Source: Nitrospiraceae bacterium
GTDB lineage: Bacteria > Nitrospirota > Thermodesulfovibrionia > UBA6902
NCBI GenBank assembly: GCA_003599505.1
Contig: QZKO01000059.1
Coordinates: forward strand, 1 to 40,990
Direction of reading: 5' to 3'
DNA: 40,990 nucleotides
Shown here one piece after another: positions 6,796 through 26,786 of the stretch. Every line of letters begins with the position of its first letter. The first letter of the stretch is position 1. The translations under genes were made by a program, and so were the position numbers. The notes below the pieces were generated by a model. That model made no database searches and was not told where the DNA came from. It worked only from the letters and a program-made list of their open reading frames with translations.

Positions 6796-8240
6796 TGGCA
6801 CAGGAACAAAGGCTTGAGCTCAGGCTTTCCCAGAAATTAATCCTCACGCCGCAACTGCAGCAGTCGATCAAGCTCCTGCAGCTTCCGCTCCTTGAGCTCC
6901 TGCAGGACATCAACCAGGAGCTCATGGGCAATCCGCTCCTTGAAGAAAGCGTCGAGCAGGAGCCGGGGGAAAAAACCGAAGCCCCTGAAATGGCGCTTGA
7001 AGAAGAAGCCTTCCGGAAGCCTTCCGACGACAGCGAGGCCCCGCTTGAAAAAATCTTCGGTTTCACAACGGACAACTATTTTGAAGAACGTGAAAGCGAC
7101 GGCAGGGATTTAGGTTATTTCAATGACGGCGCCGAGGAGGTCCAGTCCTATCTTGAGCGCAACAGGAAAAAACCCGATTTATATGAGCACCTCCTGTGGC
7201 AATTAAGACTTACCTCTACCCCTGAGGAGGTCGGAAGGGCGGCGGAGGTAATCATAAACAACCTGAATGAAGACGGGTATCTTAAGGCTTCCCCGGAAGA
7301 AATAGCCGAAACCACAAAGACCGGGATGAAAACCTTTGGGGACGCGCTTTCATTAGTCCAGGAGCTGGACCCGTCGGGCGTAGGCGCCCGCGACCTCCAG
7401 GAATGCCTGCTGCTGCAGTTGAAGCCTTTAAACCTGAAAGGGTCCCTTGTTGAGAGTATCCTCACTGACGGCTTTCAGGAGCTCGAAGGCAAGAAATACA
7501 AACACCTTGCGTCAAAATTCACGACATCAATCGATGACATCTTTGCCGCGGTGAAAATTATCGAAGGGCTCGAGCCGCGTCCCGGAAGAAATTTTTCGAG
7601 CGACGAGCCGGTGCATATTATTCCCGACGTATTCATAGAAGAATCGGACGGGGCATTTTTAATAACACTTAACGACGAGGGCGTCCCCAGGCTCAGACTG
7701 TCCAATTATTACAGGAAGCTCCTTGCAAACAAGAAATCTCTGGGCCCTGAGGAAAAAAAATTCCTTGAAGAGAAACTGCGTTCCGCCATCTGGCTTCTCA
7801 AGAGCCTTGATCAGAGGAACAAGACCATATACAGAGTTACCGAGAGCATCCTCAAGTTTCAGGATGAATTCTTCAGAAAAGGACACAAACATCTCAAACC
7901 GCTTAACCTTAAAGACGTGGCCGAAGATCTGGGTATGCACGAAAGCACGATAAGCAGGGTCACGTCAAATAAATATGTCCAGTGTCCCCAGGGTCTCCTC
8001 GGTTTCAGGTTTTTTTTCAGCAACGCGGTCCCCTCTTCTACCGGAAATATCTCTTCATCGACCGTAAAGGACCTCATCAGAAAGATAGTCTCCGAAGAAA
8101 ACCCCAATGAACCGCTGAATGACAAGAAAATAGTCGATATGTTAAAAGACAAAGGCATAAGCGTCGCGCGCAGGACCGCGGCGAAGTACAGGGAGGAATT
8201 GAAGATCCCATCGCACGCAAAGCGTAAAAAATGGTTCTAA
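6795..8240 (+). CDS. rpoN: RNA polymerase sigma-54 factor RpoN
   Basis: A 481-residue sigma-54 factor, which directs transcription from -24/-12 promoters that need enhancer-binding ATPases. Region I at the N-terminus is the usual glutamine/leucine-rich stretch (S-Q-K-L-I-L-T-P-Q-L-Q-Q-S-I-K-L-L-Q). An acidic region II follows (~45-95), then the core-binding domain and the HTH (L-G-M-H-E-S-T-I-S-R-V-T-S-N-K-Y-V). The RpoN box near the C-terminus reads A-R-R-T-A-A-K-Y-R-E-E-L, with Ala in place of the common Val. The start overlaps the lptB stop. The link lptB-rpoN-hpf is conserved in many diderms. No clear -24/-12 promoter was recognised in the window. Confidence 0.97.
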   Translation: MAQEQRLELRLSQKLILTPQLQQSIKLLQLPLLELLQDINQELMGNPLLEESVEQEPGEKTEAPEMALEEEAFRKPSDDSEAPLEKIFGFTTDNYFEERESDGRDLGYFNDGAEEVQSYLERNRKKPDLYEHLLWQLRLTSTPEEVGRAAEVIINNLNEDGYLKASPEEIAETTKTGMKTFGDALSLVQELDPSGVGARDLQECLLLQLKPLNLKGSLVESILTDGFQELEGKKYKHLASKFTTSIDDIFAAVKIIEGLEPRPGRNFSSDEPVHIIPDVFIEESDGAFLITLNDEGVPRLRLSNYYRKLLANKKSLGPEEKKFLEEKLRSAIWLLKSLDQRNKTIYRVTESILKFQDEFFRKGHKHLKPLNLKDVAEDLGMHESTISRVTSNKYVQCPQGLLGFRFFFSNAVPSSTGNISSSTVKDLIRKIVSEENPNEPLNDKKIVDMLKDKGISVARRTAAKYREELKIPSHAKRKKWF

Positions 8241-8252
8241 AGGAGGAAGAGC

Positions 8253-8768
8253 ATGAATATTATAATCAACTGCAAACACATGGACCTCACAAAGACCCTG
8301 AAAGACTACACGGAAGAAAAGCTGGGCAAGTTCGAAAAATATATCAATAACATTACAGAGGCGGTTGTTACCCTGAGCGTTGAGAAATACAGGCACAAAG
8401 CGGAAGTCCTTCTTAAAGTCAACGGCCTGCTCATCCAGGCGGAAAGCATAACAGACGAGATGTATTCGTCAATTGATGAAGTGACGGACAAGCTTGAGCG
8501 GCAGATTAAAAAATACAAGGAGAAGATCGCTTCCCACAGAAAGAGCAAAAAAGAACCCGCGGCCCCCGCGGCAAGAGAGAAAACCGCTCCCCTTATCATA
8601 AAGAAGAAAACCTTCGACATAAAGCCCATGGGGGTGGAAGAAGCCGCGATGCAGATGGACCTCCTCGACAAGAATTTTTTCGTATTCACAAATTCTTCGT
8701 CCGGAGACATAAACGTCTTATATAAAAGAAAAGACGGCAACCTCGGGCTGATAGAGCCGGTAAAGTGA
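8253..8768 (+). CDS. hpf: ribosome hibernation promoting factor, long form
   Basis: A 171-residue HPF/YfiA-family protein that binds the 30S subunit and silences ribosomes in stationary phase. Residues 1-100 form the beta-alpha-beta-beta-beta-alpha ribosome-binding domain (D-Y-T-E-E-K-L-G-K-F-E-K-Y ... V-E-K-Y-R-H-K-A-E-V). A charged linker (~100-118) leads to the C-terminal dimerisation domain, recognised by F-D-I-K-P-M-G-V-E-E-A-A-M-Q-M and N-V-L-Y-K-R-K-D-G-N-L-G-L-I-E-P. This is the long type that makes 100S ribosomes alone. A good AAAGGAGG site at 8240-8247 fixes the start. The final TGA overlaps the GTG start of rapZ. Confidence 0.94.
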   Translation: MNIIINCKHMDLTKTLKDYTEEKLGKFEKYINNITEAVVTLSVEKYRHKAEVLLKVNGLLIQAESITDEMYSSIDEVTDKLERQIKKYKEKIASHRKSKKEPAAPAAREKTAPLIIKKKTFDIKPMGVEEAAMQMDLLDKNFFVFTNSSSGDINVLYKRKDGNLGLIEPVK

Positions 8769-9637
8769 CCCCCTCCGAGGACCATAAAGTATACACGATC
8801 ATAGTAACAGGGCTTTCCGGCGCGGGAAAAACGATCGCGCTGAACGCCTTTGAGGACGCGGGATTTTTCTGTGTCGACAACCTCCCTACCGCGCTGATCA
8901 AGTCCTTTGTGGATTTATGCGGCAAGACCCCCTCCATATCAAATATCGCGATCGGGATCGATATCAGGGAATCCGGATTCCTGGACCAGTTTTCGGATAT
9001 TATTTCCGGACTGAGAAATACCCGGAGCCTGGAGATAATATTCCTTGAGGCGGCAGAAGACGTCCTGATAAGGAGGTTCAAAGAAACAAGAAGGCCCCAT
9101 CCCCTCGGCTATAAGGACCTGAAAAAAGCCCTCCGCAAAGAAGTCCGGGTACTGCGCGCGTTAAGACAGGACGCGGACAGAATTATCGATACATCCTCTC
9201 TCAGCCCGCACCAGTTGCGCAAGCTGATAACAAAAACATTCCTGAACCGGGAGCCCGCGAAGATGTCGGTCGGCATTGTATCTTTCGGCTATAAATACGG
9301 CATACCGCTTGAGGCGGACCTGCTTTTTGACGTAAGGTTCCTGCCGAACCCTCATTTTATTAAAGAACTGAAACCCCTGACCGGGACGTCACCGAAAGTG
9401 AGGAAGTTTGTCCTGTCCCAGGAAGCTACCCTACAGTTTTTTGAAAAACTTAACCCCCTCCTTGAACACCTTCTCCCTCTGTACAGCCAGGAGGGCAGAA
9501 ATTATCTCACCATAGGCGTCGGATGCACCGGTGGAAGGCACAGGTCCCCCGTTATCGCTGAAGAAATCAGAAAAAGTCTCCTTAAGAAAAAACTTGATGT
9601 ATCCGTAGTCCACAGGGATATGAAGGATGCGATATGA
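8765..9637 (+). CDS. rapZ: RNase adapter / nucleotide-binding protein RapZ
   Basis: A 290-residue RapZ (YvcJ) family protein. In E. coli, RapZ senses glucosamine-6-phosphate and guides RNase E to the GlmZ sRNA; the role elsewhere is less certain. The N-terminal P-loop is G-L-S-G-A-G-K-T (~16-23), followed by F-C-V-D-N-L-P-T. The C-terminal domain has the conserved S-F-G-Y-K-Y-G-I-P, D-V-R-F-L-P-N-P and I-G-V-G-C-T-G-G-R-H-R-S-P-V-I-A-E. The start is a GTG overlapping the hpf stop. In many relatives hprK or ptsN lies between hpf and rapZ; neither is here. The stop overlaps the next ATG (ATGA). Confidence 0.94.
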   Translation: MTPSEDHKVYTIIVTGLSGAGKTIALNAFEDAGFFCVDNLPTALIKSFVDLCGKTPSISNIAIGIDIRESGFLDQFSDIISGLRNTRSLEIIFLEAAEDVLIRRFKETRRPHPLGYKDLKKALRKEVRVLRALRQDADRIIDTSSLSPHQLRKLITKTFLNREPAKMSVGIVSFGYKYGIPLEADLLFDVRFLPNPHFIKELKPLTGTSPKVRKFVLSQEATLQFFEKLNPLLEHLLPLYSQEGRNYLTIGVGCTGGRHRSPVIAEEIRKSLLKKKLDVSVVHRDMKDAI

Positions 9638-23132: not shown

Positions 23133-24116
23133 CTACAGAATGCCGACCGGCATTTTCAGACTCACCTGAAGGTCCGGAGATTCAGGGGTCAGCCCTATTG
23201 AAAGCGTAAAACTCAGCGATTTCTTGCCGCTCATATAATATGAAACTCCAAAAAGAAGGTTGGCAACGGTGATGTCGGTCTCAACCTGTTTCACTCCGTC
23301 GATCACGGCGCTTGAAAAAAAATTCTGTTCAAACGCGGTGCCGAGAGTTATCCTGTCGTTTAACGCGTAACCCATTCCGAGGGTGTAATTCACGCTGTCG
23401 CCGGGGTCTACAACACCCACGCCGTTAATGCTGCGCTTCATATGACGGAAATAACTCACACTTCCGAAAAGCACGGCGGGGTCCACGGTCTTCAGCAGGC
23501 TTATCCCGGGCTCCACCGCCCAATGGCCGCTTCCGGTCGACAGCTCCGTGGGTATCTGAGCGGCCCCGGACTGGATTGTTTTCGTGGCTAATCCATATGG
23601 GGCCTTGCCCGTGCGGGATTTTACTTTTACTGTAGCGACAACGTCTGGAACGGATTCCTTTTCCCTGACGGCGTGTAAACTCAACAGTCCTTCTATATCG
23701 CCGAAAGCGGTTTCGTCTGTGGTGTTCTTCTCCATTGCGGGCCCGGCCCCCGTGATGAATTCGTCTTTACGGATAAAATATGGAATCCTGAGATCGAACT
23801 GGGCCCTGTCGCTGATTCCGTATTTGAGCGTTACCGACGGTATGAATACGTCCCTCTTTATTTTCTCAACCTGGATGACGCCTATGATTATGGCGGGGAG
23901 CACCGTGAAACCGGTTATTTCAAGCCTGTTCGCCGAAATATGCGCGTAGGTCAGCTCCGGAACAAGCAATAACTTCCCCTTGCCTATGAGTACTATCCCC
24001 CGGTCCGCCGGTATCCCCGATTCAGCCGCCTGCGTCCCGCCCCCTTCCTGCGCCGGCGCGAAATCAGCCAGACAGAGAGCAAACAACACGAACAGGGAAC
24101 AGACTGTTTTTTTCAT
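23133..24116 (-). CDS. outer-membrane beta-barrel protein (transporter-like)
   Basis: A 327-residue protein from ATG 24116, chosen because GGAGGAG precedes it and a signal peptide follows (M-K-K-T-V-C-S-L-F-V-L-F-A-L-C-L-A, cleavage after A-P-A-Q); an in-frame upstream extension to 24182 is unlikely. After a short disordered G/A-rich linker the chain has many alternating strands, such as L-L-L-V-P-E-L-T-Y-A-H-I, V-T-L-K-Y-G-I-S-D-R-A-Q-F-D-L-R-I-P-Y and V-N-Y-T-L-G-M-G-Y-A-L-N-D-R-I-T-L-G. This pattern fits the 'putative MetA-pathway/phenol degradation' barrel superfamily that includes FapF-like porins. The N-terminal coiled coil of FapF is absent. It is the last gene of the cluster with the C39 peptidase and the double-glycine protein, so it is a candidate exit pore. 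Function is inferred. Confidence 0.7.
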   Translation of the reverse strand: MKKTVCSLFVLFALCLADFAPAQEGGGTQAAESGIPADRGIVLIGKGKLLLVPELTYAHISANRLEITGFTVLPAIIIGVIQVEKIKRDVFIPSVTLKYGISDRAQFDLRIPYFIRKDEFITGAGPAMEKNTTDETAFGDIEGLLSLHAVREKESVPDVVATVKVKSRTGKAPYGLATKTIQSGAAQIPTELSTGSGHWAVEPGISLLKTVDPAVLFGSVSYFRHMKRSINGVGVVDPGDSVNYTLGMGYALNDRITLGTAFEQNFFSSAVIDGVKQVETDITVANLLFGVSYYMSGKKSLSFTLSIGLTPESPDLQVSLKMPVGIL

Positions 24117-24196
24117 TACTCCTCCGGGTTCAGGGAAATATATTTTTGAAGAGATTATAAATTGAGGAATAGAGACTGTCAAATAAAATCGCGACG

Positions 24197-24748
24197 CTAC
24201 CTGATGTTTAAATTCTGCAAAAGCGTCCTTGCCGGAGAAAAGTCCTTCACCTGGAAGAAATTGATTTCAATTTTTATCAGGTTTGTTATGGAGGCGGAAT
24301 TAAAATTTCCGTTTATGATATTAGCGTTGACGAGACCGGAATTATTAATAAAAGATACCTGATTCACCGGCGACTGAGACATGGGATTACCATTGGCTTC
24401 CTCCGCGCGGATGCCGCCCAAAGACCCGTTTTGCGTTATATCGATCTCAACCCCCATGCCGTCTTCCGTGATAAAAGCCCTCTGCTGCAGGACATTCAGG
24501 AACGTCCCGTCTTCAGCTAACTCCGGCGAGTTGTTCAGGAAACCTTTAACCTGAAAGAATTCAATCGAAAAGTAAATGAAGCTGCCGTCCGGATTCATGA
24601 AGCCGCCGTAAACTTCAGCAAGCTCATTATCATCAAGGACCGCGCCTGAAAGCATAATATCCTCTGCGCCCGCGTCGGGGGAGAATAAAGCAAGAAATAT
24701 CAGCATCGTTAAAAACCTTTTCCATGTGCCGTTTCTTTGCTCTCTCAT
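24197..24748 (-). CDS. Sec-exported protein with double-glycine leader, putative C39 substrate
   Basis: A 183-residue protein of no recognised family. Residues 1-28 are a Sec signal (R-N-G-T-W-K-R then a hydrophobic run to D-A-G-A). Directly after it comes L-D-D-N-E-L-A-E-V-Y-G-G (38-49), which matches the bacteriocin-type double-glycine leader: L at -12, E-L at -8/-7, V at -4, G-G at -2/-1. The rest contains two copies of F-F-Q-V-K-x-F, at 64-70 and 164-170, each preceded by alternating I/E/N strands, and many N, G and I residues. It starts one base after the C39 gene stop. The simplest reading is a product exported by Sec, then trimmed after G49 by the neighbouring C39 enzyme. The role of the mature chain is unknown; a surface or fibre component is plausible. 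Confidence 0.72.
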   Translation of the reverse strand: MREQRNGTWKRFLTMLIFLALFSPDAGAEDIMLSGAVLDDNELAEVYGGFMNPDGSFIYFSIEFFQVKGFLNNSPELAEDGTFLNVLQQRAFITEDGMGVEIDITQNGSLGGIRAEEANGNPMSQSPVNQVSFINNSGLVNANIINGNFNSASITNLIKIEINFFQVKDFSPARTLLQNLNIR

Positions 24749-24749
24749 G

Positions 24750-25460
24750 TCAAAACTCCGATGGGTTTATTACAAACTGCAGATAGTACTGACCCGCGAA
24801 AAAATCGGTTTTGTTTTTCCTCTCTGAAACGTCACTGATCTCGAGCGCGTGAGATTTTGCTTCCCTGCTGCCGGGGTCGCTGAGCAAAAGGAGGATGCCG
24901 TTCCATTTTTCGACAAACTCCCTGCGGCCCCACACAAGGTTCCCCATCGCCGGATCGGCGATAAAGGCCTTTCCTCCTTTAACACCCTTTAATACGACAA
25001 AATGCAAAAATCCCCTGTTATTGACAAGCACTATCGCGGGCCTGTCGAGCTTCTCAAGAACGCTTTCCGGGACCCTTAACCCCGTGCCCTTATAGCCATA
25101 TGTCTCAGCGGATTTCTTGATATCAAGCAGGGAAATCCCTTTTCTGATAACATCCTCCCTTTTTTCCGGGCTTGCCCCGTTAAGTATGTTCTCAAGGATT
25201 TTGTTTTCCGGAACCTCTCTGCCGAAGTAATACTGCAAAACAGTCGACAAGGCCGCGGCCCCGCAGCTATACTCTCTTGTCTGCCTGACCACGTTTCTGA
25301 ACTTCATGTCCTGCATGGTCCTAACGTTTTTTTTGATATACGAAGCGCTCCCTATTTCTACAGGCATATTTACAGAGCCTGCATCGTGCGCAAGGCCGGT
25401 AAAAAAGAGACCTGTGGTTAAAGCAATAAAGGCTTTTATGGGTTTCATCTGAGTCATCAT
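24750..25460 (-). CDS. stand-alone periplasmic C39-family cysteine peptidase (FapD-like)
   Basis: About 236 residues from ATG 25460, preferred over the upstream GTG because GAGGGG lies just before it. An N-terminal hydrophobic segment (A-F-I-A-L-T-T-G-L-F-F-T-G-L-A-H) acts as a signal peptide. The C39 fold is shown by Gln60 and Cys66 in V-V-R-Q-T-R-E-Y-S-C-G-A-A-A-L-S-T-V-L, His153 in G-F-L-H-F-V-V-L-K-G and Asp169 in F-I-A-D-P-A-M-G. No ABC transporter domains are attached, unlike bacteriocin exporters. The peptidase should act in the periplasm, as FapD does in Pseudomonas functional-amyloid operons. It is followed at one base by the double-glycine protein, its probable substrate. Confidence 0.85.
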   Translation of the reverse strand: MMTQMKPIKAFIALTTGLFFTGLAHDAGSVNMPVEIGSASYIKKNVRTMQDMKFRNVVRQTREYSCGAAALSTVLQYYFGREVPENKILENILNGASPEKREDVIRKGISLLDIKKSAETYGYKGTGLRVPESVLEKLDRPAIVLVNNRGFLHFVVLKGVKGGKAFIADPAMGNLVWGRREFVEKWNGILLLLSDPGSREAKSHALEISDVSERKNKTDFFAGQYYLQFVINPSEF

Positions 25461-25477
25461 TTTTCCCCTCACCCTTG

Positions 25478-25506
25478 CCCTCTCCCCGATCCATAAGGGG
25501 AGAGGG
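25478..25506. repeat. strong hairpin between the first two genes of the secretion cluster
   Basis: CCCTCTCCCC and GGGGAGAGGG form a perfect 10-bp stem around a 9-base loop. It lies 18 bases before the C39 start codon and 34 bases after the stop of the N-rich protein. There is no T-run, so it is more likely an mRNA-stabilising or partial-attenuation structure, or a dispersed repeat, than a full terminator. Confidence 0.6.
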
Positions 25507-25539
25507 AAACCAGGGGGAAGCGCCTCTCCACTGCTTTAC

Positions 25540-25941
25540 TCAGGGATGAAAGTCGACGTGAGTGCTGAAGTTGTTCAGGTTGCCGAAGTTGTTAAAGGAG
25601 CCTGTGGTGGTGTTGACGAATATTACGCCGATGTTATCGTGCACGTCAGTGTCGATATGCTCGGACCTGACTTCGATCCGTTCAGCGCTGGTTTCTATTG
25701 TCTGATGCAGCTCCGCGTCCGAAACCAGGACCGCTTCGGAGTCTATATCGACGTCGTTAATGACAAAACCATCGCCTCCGACCGCCCCGGCCGCTCCGAC
25801 GCCTCTGACAGTCGCCCTCGTAGAATTGTCACTGTTGTCGTTATTGGTATTCAGGGAGATATCATTGGCCGAAATTGCAAACGGCACATTCAGCGCCAGC
25901 AGCAAGGACAGCGCAATTATGCAAATTACAAGCGTTTTCAT
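25540..25941 (-). CDS. small secreted N/D-rich protein, possible fibre-type component
   Basis: A 133-residue protein of unknown family with a clean signal peptide (I-C-I-I-A-L-S-L-L-L-A-L-N-V-P-F-A-I-S-A). The mature chain starts N-D-I-S-L-N-T-N-N-D-N-S-D-N-S, continues through a G/A-rich segment (G-V-G-A-A-G-A-V-G-G-D-G-F) and ends with S-F-N-N-F-G-N-L-N-N-F-S. Low complexity and N-F repeats resemble amyloid-prone or matrix proteins. A strong AAAGGAGG site and a near-consensus promoter (26028-26056) suggest high expression. It is the first gene of the cluster, in the place where FapB/FapC-type subunits sit in Fap operons; no homology to those is claimed. Confidence 0.65.
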   Translation of the reverse strand: MKTLVICIIALSLLLALNVPFAISANDISLNTNNDNSDNSTRATVRGVGAAGAVGGDGFVINDVDIDSEAVLVSDAELHQTIETSAERIEVRSEHIDTDVHDNIGVIFVNTTTGSFNNFGNLNNFSTHVDFHP

Positions 25942-26074: not shown

Positions 26075-26103
26075 TTGACACCTTTTCACCGCTTCATTAT
26101 AAT
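26075..26103 (+). promoter_or_regulatory. perfect consensus sigma-70 promoter for the mgtC-like gene
   Basis: TTGACA-N17-TATAAT, a six-of-six match in both boxes at optimal spacing. The -10 box ends only 8 bases before ATG 26112, so the transcript should have no 5' leader. Confidence 0.8.
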
Positions 26104-26111
26104 GAATGCAT

Positions 26112-26786
26112 ATGATATCCGCTCCCGAAATTCTGCTCCGCCTGCTCCTCGGCGCCGTCATAGGAGGCATTGTAGGTTTTGAGAGGGAAATCCACGGAAG
26201 GGCGGCGGGGTTCAGGACCCAGTTGATAGTCTGTGTCGCCTCTGTCCTCATAATGATCGTTTCGGAGAACTACTATTTCCATATCCACAGCCTCGACCCC
26301 ACCCTCCGGATTGACCCGGCGAGGATTTCAGCGGGGGCGCTGATCGGCATCGGTTTTCTCGGCGCCGGGGTAATCGTCAAAAGCGGTTTCGCGATAAGAG
26401 GCCTGACAACCGCCGCGTCCATCTGGATAATATCCGCTATCGGCCTCGCAATCGGAGGGGGACTCTATCTTGAAGGCATATCAACTGCCGTAATCACTAT
26501 TATCGCGCTTATGGCCCTCCGGACCGTTGACAAGAAAATCAGGGTGCTGCGGTACAAAATCGTCAGCGTATCGACGCCCCTGAATGAAAACAGGGAAGAT
26601 ACGATTACAGCGGCGCTGACTGAACACGGGTTTCACATCCACTCGGTCAACTATGAAAAGAACAGCGCGAAAGGCGAGATCATATATAATTTTACTGTTT
26701 CCTCAAGAGAGAAAAACGCGACAAGAAAAATATTTCTTGAATTGAACTCGATGGGGTTTGTCAAAACCCTGAGAATCAGCGGGTAA
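26112..26786 (+). CDS. MgtC/SapB family membrane protein
   Basis: A 224-residue protein with four to five membrane helices and a cytoplasmic C-terminal ACT-like domain. Family blocks are L-L-G-A-V-I-G-G-I-V-G-F-E-R-E-I-H-G-R, A-G-F-R-T-Q-L-I-V, I-G-F-L-G-A-G-V-I and R-G-L-T-T-A-A-S-I-W. MgtC proteins limit F1Fo-ATPase activity in Salmonella and Mycobacterium; in other bacteria they are linked to Mg2+ stress or are of unclear role. ATG 26112 is chosen over 26106 because the -10 box at 26098-26103 leaves no room for a transcript starting before 26106. There is no Shine-Dalgarno sequence. No mgtA or PhoPQ gene is nearby. Confidence 0.88.
   Translation: MISAPEILLRLLLGAVIGGIVGFEREIHGRAAGFRTQLIVCVASVLIMIVSENYYFHIHSLDPTLRIDPARISAGALIGIGFLGAGVIVKSGFAIRGLTTAASIWIISAIGLAIGGGLYLEGISTAVITIIALMALRTVDKKIRVLRYKIVSVSTPLNENREDTITAALTEHGFHIHSVNYEKNSAKGEIIYNFTVSSREKNATRKIFLELNSMGFVKTLRISG

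Follow-up and report, generated by a model that had tools for sequence, protein, structure and literature searches.

A probable reduced Fap-type gene cluster in a Nitrospiraceae bacterium, with a single-repeat subunit, a FapF-like barrel and a C39-type leader on the FapE-like protein

INTRODUCTION

The Fap system of Pseudomonas is encoded by fapABCDEF, and its subunits FapB and FapC each contain three imperfect repeats, a number described as almost invariable in a 2025 review (PMC12822426). FapD is a periplasmic peptidase whose catalytic cysteine is required for FapC secretion (PMC5557850), and its substrate was called undetermined in a 2018 review. According to a 2017 study, canonical C39 sequences are absent from Fap proteins, yet GG motifs were noted in FapE, which makes up a minor part of the Pseudomonas fibres and is the sole Fap protein that lacked its N-terminus in mass spectrometry (PMC5557850). 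FapF homologues have all been reported to possess a periplasmic coiled coil, itself described as essential for secretion (PMC6173795). Since fapD and fapF were reported in 2018 to be co-located in five additional phyla (PMC6173800), and Nitrospirota were named in 2025 among the phyla with Fap and/or curli operons (PMC12822426), the presence of Fap in Nitrospirota is not new. One-repeat subunits, a coiled-coil-free FapF and a C39-type leader register in FapE are features for which we found no description in the literature searched, most subscription papers being outside its scope.

Two other systems resemble Fap in part. The fil operons of Acinetobacter (filABCDEF), on whose mechanism the literature searched says little, encode a putative pilus system in which a stand-alone C39 peptidase adjoins a related barrel. 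C39 ABC exporters of double-glycine peptides, such as PCAT and ComA, contain a homologous peptidase domain.

RESULTS

Gene order and transcription signals

The window, which is the whole stretch of 40,990 nucleotides analyzed, contains four ORFs at 23133-25941, all on the minus strand. A preliminary description of this DNA had proposed these four genes, and their presence was confirmed. The features of the cluster are the following.

25540..25941, minus strand: P0004, subunit gene, 133 aa, predicted secreted one-repeat FapB/FapC-type subunit
25558..25647, minus strand: single Fap-type repeat, P0004 residues 99-128 (hhalign 92.7%, E=4e-7)
25475..25509, minus strand: G+C-rich hairpin between the P0004 and P0003 genes, with 13-nt arms that are 92% complementary and 9 nt apart
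24750..25460, minus strand: P0003, FapD-like, predicted periplasmic C39 peptidase, 236 aa from ATG
24197..24748, minus strand: P0002, probable FapE-like double-glycine protein, 183 aa
24602..24637, minus strand: C39-type leader LDDNELAEVYGG, P0002 residues 38-49, predicted cut after Gly49
24154..24182, minus strand: sigma-70 promoter, TTGACA-N17-TATAAT, 12/12 consensus matches, before the barrel gene P0001
23133..24116, minus strand: P0001, FapF-like outer-membrane barrel without a periplasmic coiled coil, 327 aa

The P0002 gene occupies the fapE slot, between the peptidase and barrel genes, and the order subunit - fapD - fapE - fapF is the same as in Pseudomonas; FapA was not found in the window cluster. 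Sec-type signal peptides could be read by eye at the N-termini of all four proteins, and the junction between the P0003 and P0002 genes is TGA-c-ATG, in agreement with the signal peptides and the one-base spacing described earlier. The start of P0001 is an ATG preceded by GGAGGAG, whereas for P0003 an alternative start is possible at a GTG at 25472. The G+C content of the cluster (0.498) matches that of the window (0.491), and the gene that follows the barrel gene is of the fumarase type.

The cluster had been described as one unit with a near-consensus promoter. The promoter turned out to be perfect, being one of two perfect TTGACA-N17-TATAAT sites in the whole window, but it is placed directly before the barrel gene, which differs in this respect from Pseudomonas fap. 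Considering this position and the hairpin between the first and second genes, a single transcript is not assured, and the four genes, although clustered on one strand, may give rise to two or three transcripts. The hairpin is possibly an RNA processing or attenuation site; its interpretation as a dispersed repeat was rejected, as the 23-nt stretch tested has only one exact copy in the genome. The second perfect promoter sequence was observed at 26075-26103 on the plus strand. Two bases separate its end from the ATG of an ORF that resembles MgtC/SapB (26106-26786, identity by eye) and whose true start may be further in.

The barrel and the peptidase

P0001 matched the NCBIfam FapF model at 2.1e-55 (188 bits; curated cut-off 700) and the FapF structure 5o65 of the PDB at 5.5e-40 in a phmmer search. 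Its AlphaFold2 model was based on 21 aligned sequences and had a pLDDT of 84. The comparison of this model with known structures by Foldseek, suggested in the preliminary description, placed the FapF crystal structures first (5o65, E=1.6e-23; TM 0.76 and 0.83) and thus revealed no unrelated family as the best match. As judged from sequence and model, P0001 is homologous to FapF.

The second-best fold family was the COG4313 channel 4rl8 (3.7e-12), and P0001 also matched Phenol_MetA_deg (PF13557) at 0.0011, with 19.5 bits under the curated cut-off of 22. These data would fit an uptake channel of the COG4313/MetA type for hydrophobic small molecules, next to which the peptidase gene is located incidentally. 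However, FapF was ahead in both sequence and fold, and FapD-like peptidases co-occur with the barrel across phyla, namely, Nitrospirota and Pseudomonadota, so that we regard such a channel as the least probable of all the readings considered here.

Only 42 residues precede the barrel of P0001, and about 22 of these correspond to the signal peptide. No helix other than the signal was modelled in this segment (residues 18-41 with low confidence), and no coiled coil or helical plug was seen before the barrel, in contrast to Pseudomonas FapF. Similarly short N-termini were observed on FapF-like proteins of several other lineages.

P0003 matched the Pfam C39 domain at 8e-25 and contained no ABC domain, as had been noted before. 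The match to NCBIfam FapD was 6e-37 (127 bits; curated cut-off 330), and that to the C39 domain of the peptidase-containing ABC exporter 6mpz was 3.6e-13. Cys66, His153 and Asp169, which the preliminary description had singled out, are intact together with Gln60, and all four are invariant across ten aligned FapD-like peptidases. By sequence comparison, P0003 is homologous to FapD. The C39 ABC exporters share with the locus the peptidase domain and the leader register, but the window cluster has no ABC transporter, and both the peptidase and its putative substrate carry Sec signals, so that the two would be expected to meet in the periplasm.

Both proteins also matched Fil models, the peptidase FilB at 1e-33 and the barrel FilC at 5.8e-15, as would be expected if the cluster encoded a Fil-type putative pilus system. 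The scores for FapD and FapF were better, and in Acinetobacter the barrel gene is followed by genes annotated as a long-chain fatty acid transporter and as FilF, without a counterpart beside the window barrel, where the fumarase-type gene is found. A Fil-type system is therefore very unlikely.

The subunit

A three-repeat FapC profile made without members of the P0004 family had a sole match in the 2.64-Mb genome, which was P0004 (E=0.005, at the last linker and repeat); no other FapB/C-like genes were detected in the genome with this profile. In the reverse search, a profile of the one-repeat family, run against 396 Nitrospirota genomes, retrieved the family members of G000, G002 and G127; all other matches were FapB/C-type proteins, encoded in G027, G288 and G281, where three-repeat subunits adjoin the barrels. 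As controls for the repeat at residues 99-128, the reversed sequence gave 0.1%, and 0/5000 shuffles scored as high. Residues 68-121 align with linker 2 and repeat 3, and again none of 5,000 shuffles scored as high. Since a stricter, iterated Fap repeat model did not have P0004 among its matches, its repeat is divergent. On the basis of these alignments, P0004 is a homologue of FapB/FapC over their last linker plus repeat. The earlier view that the subunits and barrel do not look like Fap proteins is thus not upheld for the barrel or for this N-rich protein.

The cluster differs from that of Pseudomonas in that a single small subunit gene, which encodes one repeat, takes the place of FapB and FapC. 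The fap operons of G027, G288 and G281 have homologous barrels, and their FapB/C proteins are those detected by the window subunit-family profile, but each has between two and four genes for subunits, and three repeats are encoded by nearly all of these. Mature P0004 is acidic, with 18 Asp+Glu as compared to 4 Lys+Arg, and has almost no Gln. Curli were considered and rejected: the genome gave no match to the PF07012 curlin repeat, while the E. coli control was positive.

Some observations concern FapC-like proteins and linkers at other loci. About ten repeats, as compared to the usual three, were found in the FapC-like proteins of L078 (3624-5834), L097 (2544-4724) and L124 (3659-5833), which belong to Acidiferrobacter-related or unclassified proteobacterial bins. 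At many loci, the FapB/C linker before the third repeat frequently contains a leader-like V/L-S-D-x-x-L motif without glycines (e.g., L104, L094 and L048), with p<=0.05 in 45 of 122 short linkers as compared to 12 of 122 for linker 1, the loci being related; FapD could dock at this motif. In P0004, visual inspection suggested a leader-like motif, LVSDAELHQTI, which was discarded because it was no better than shuffles.

Distribution among Nitrospirota

In G002, a genome of the same genus, the gene order is identical, and the orthologues are 33-49% identical. In G127, from another family of the same class, the gene order is kept, with a doubled subunit gene and an interruption before the barrel gene; at this locus (L047), a transposase-like ORF at 7626-8903 is located between the double-glycine and barrel genes, and the two subunit copies are in tandem. 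Among near relatives, strong barrel and FapE-like matches were obtained in G127 and, out of ten genomes searched within the genus, in G000 and G002 only. A scan of named close-relative genomes with the peptidase only gave no match, whereas the profile scan succeeded.

The proposed check for conserved co-occurrence revealed a peptidase gene with the barrel, within the fetched stretch, in 19 of the 22 Nitrospirota barrel loci inspected, and the other three loci are on contigs of <=6.9 kb. Many weak Nitrospirota barrel matches (E > ~1e-14) were not counted as FapF. This co-occurrence and the repetition of the gene order in G002 argue that the cluster is not due to chance. At L063 (8335-11071) and L064 (8714-11411), from G081 and G108, two FapF-like barrel genes are in tandem, with one C39 peptidase adjoining.

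In the barrel tree, the window, G002 and G127 were grouped with a support of 100/100. A larger, repeat-poor clade was separate (100/99) and comprised members of other Nitrospirota families, Alphaproteobacteria and further taxa. The corresponding loci (Nitrospira-type, Alphaproteobacteria, Cupriavidus and Geotalea) share with the window the order small secreted protein - C39 peptidase - GG-leader protein - barrel, but differ in the barrel clade, in their long N-rich/Gly-rich secreted proteins and in FapF proteins that mostly have a long N-terminus.

The single repeat, the short FapF and the patchy occurrence in the genus might also be seen if a canonical fap operon had lost its three-repeat subunits and were now a decaying, non-working remnant. 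The four reading frames are nevertheless intact and the catalytic residues kept, and the same reduced form is conserved in G002, whose orthologues are 33-49% identical, as well as in G127, which belongs to another family. We consider a remnant highly improbable.

The leader of the double-glycine protein

C39 leaders have a register of L/V at position -12, E at -8, L at -7, V/I at -4, and G at -2 and -1. The leader of P0002, as read from its sequence, has L-12, E-8, L-7, V-4, G-2 and G-1. Its score against the TIGR01847 double-glycine leader model was 14.0 bits, just under the cut-off of 15.7. A leader pattern was defined as [LVI] at -12, E or V at -8, L at -7, mostly M/I/L/V/Q at -4, G at -2, and [GRK] at -1. 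This pattern was found on the gene adjoining the peptidase in 97 of 106 FapD loci, as compared to 229 of 3,924 other ORFs (5.8%), which is to be read as an enrichment and not as an independent probability, because the pattern was drawn from the same proteins and many loci are related. Pseudomonas had no record among the matches listed, so that no Pseudomonas FapE is in this set; a leader at the FapE N-terminus would be a feature that the locus shares with Pseudomonas Fap.

The residue at -1 before the predicted cut was Gly at 30, Lys at 41 and Arg at 26 of the 97 loci, and its identity mostly sorts by lineage among the FapE-position proteins. The specificity of FapD may have shifted along with this residue. 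At L065 (6694-10572; G258), several secreted proteins encoded upstream of the peptidase gene have D-x-x-L-D-x-[IV]-[ST]-A-x-G downstream of their signal peptides, which may represent a leader variant with Ala-x-Gly.

P0002 aligned with eight Nitrospirota FapE-position proteins at E=3e-8 (hhalign), and 2 of 5,000 shuffles reached its score against the proteobacterial FapE profile. The NCBIfam FapE model matched the G002 orthologue of P0002 (0.011, residues 9-59) but not P0002 itself; a search of the whole genome with this model gave no match, which is not evidence of absence, since the controls were likewise silent. FapE-type matches in G075 and G059 were rejected because they had a ModA-type look and only their N-terminal part aligned. 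In view of these false matches, an E-value near 1e-4 was not accepted as sufficient by itself when the profile consisted of three sequences. A Fap repeat in the C-terminal half of P0002 was tested and not supported. The alignments indicate that P0002 is probably FapE-like. The leader on the neighbour gene in 97 of 106 FapD loci, together with the textbook leader of P0002, points to FapE as the substrate of FapD.

Alternatively, P0002 might be what the system chiefly secretes, released by the peptidase and exported by the barrel to act at the surface, in signalling or against other bacteria, with P0004 as an accessory. P0002 has the clearest leader and is encoded one base from the peptidase gene, and GG-type leaders are present on more than one secreted protein in several related loci. 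This explanation appears unlikely considering that P0004 is homologous to the FapB/FapC fibre subunits and is doubled in G127, as expected of a bulk subunit, and that FapE is only minor in Pseudomonas fibres (PMC5557850).

DISCUSSION

We conclude that the cluster is probably a reduced operon for Fap-type secretion and a surface fibre. The export system resembling Fap that had been proposed initially is supported by the homology of barrel and peptidase to FapF and FapD, the FapB/FapC-like repeat of the subunit, and the protein in the FapE slot. Neither of the two outcomes that the preliminary description had named as refuting it, homologues that fail to co-occur or a barrel from an unrelated family, was observed. 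Because three repeats and the coiled coil are both missing, we regard the cluster as a reduced relative rather than a standard Fap operon.

By homology, the cluster would work like Fap. According to their signal peptides, all four proteins would be taken into the periplasm by Sec. The leader register and gene position suggest that P0003 would cut P0002 after Gly49, which would free it of the ~20-residue leader left after signal cleavage. By analogy with Pseudomonas Fap, trimmed P0002 may then engage or pass the barrel P0001, and P0004 would leave through P0001 and assemble on the cell surface. Several observations count against the Fap reading, namely, FapF and FapD scores under the NCBIfam cut-offs, the single repeat, the absence of the coiled coil and the weak FapE homology, as does the acidic, almost Gln-free nature of mature P0004, for which amyloid formation is putative.

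A more far-reaching proposal, to which we give somewhat less than even chances, is that of a minimal Fap machine with single-repeat subunits and a pore without a coiled coil, in which, as in the whole family, FapD would remove a C39-type leader from FapE that ends in Gly-Gly or Gly-Arg/Gly-Lys, depending on the lineage.

The canonical leader on the FapE-position protein, with a register that recurs across lineages, provides a concrete and testable cleavage site. The data also suggest that three repeats per subunit and the FapF coiled coil are both dispensable, and that such loci may be overlooked when a screen demands FapB/C repeats.
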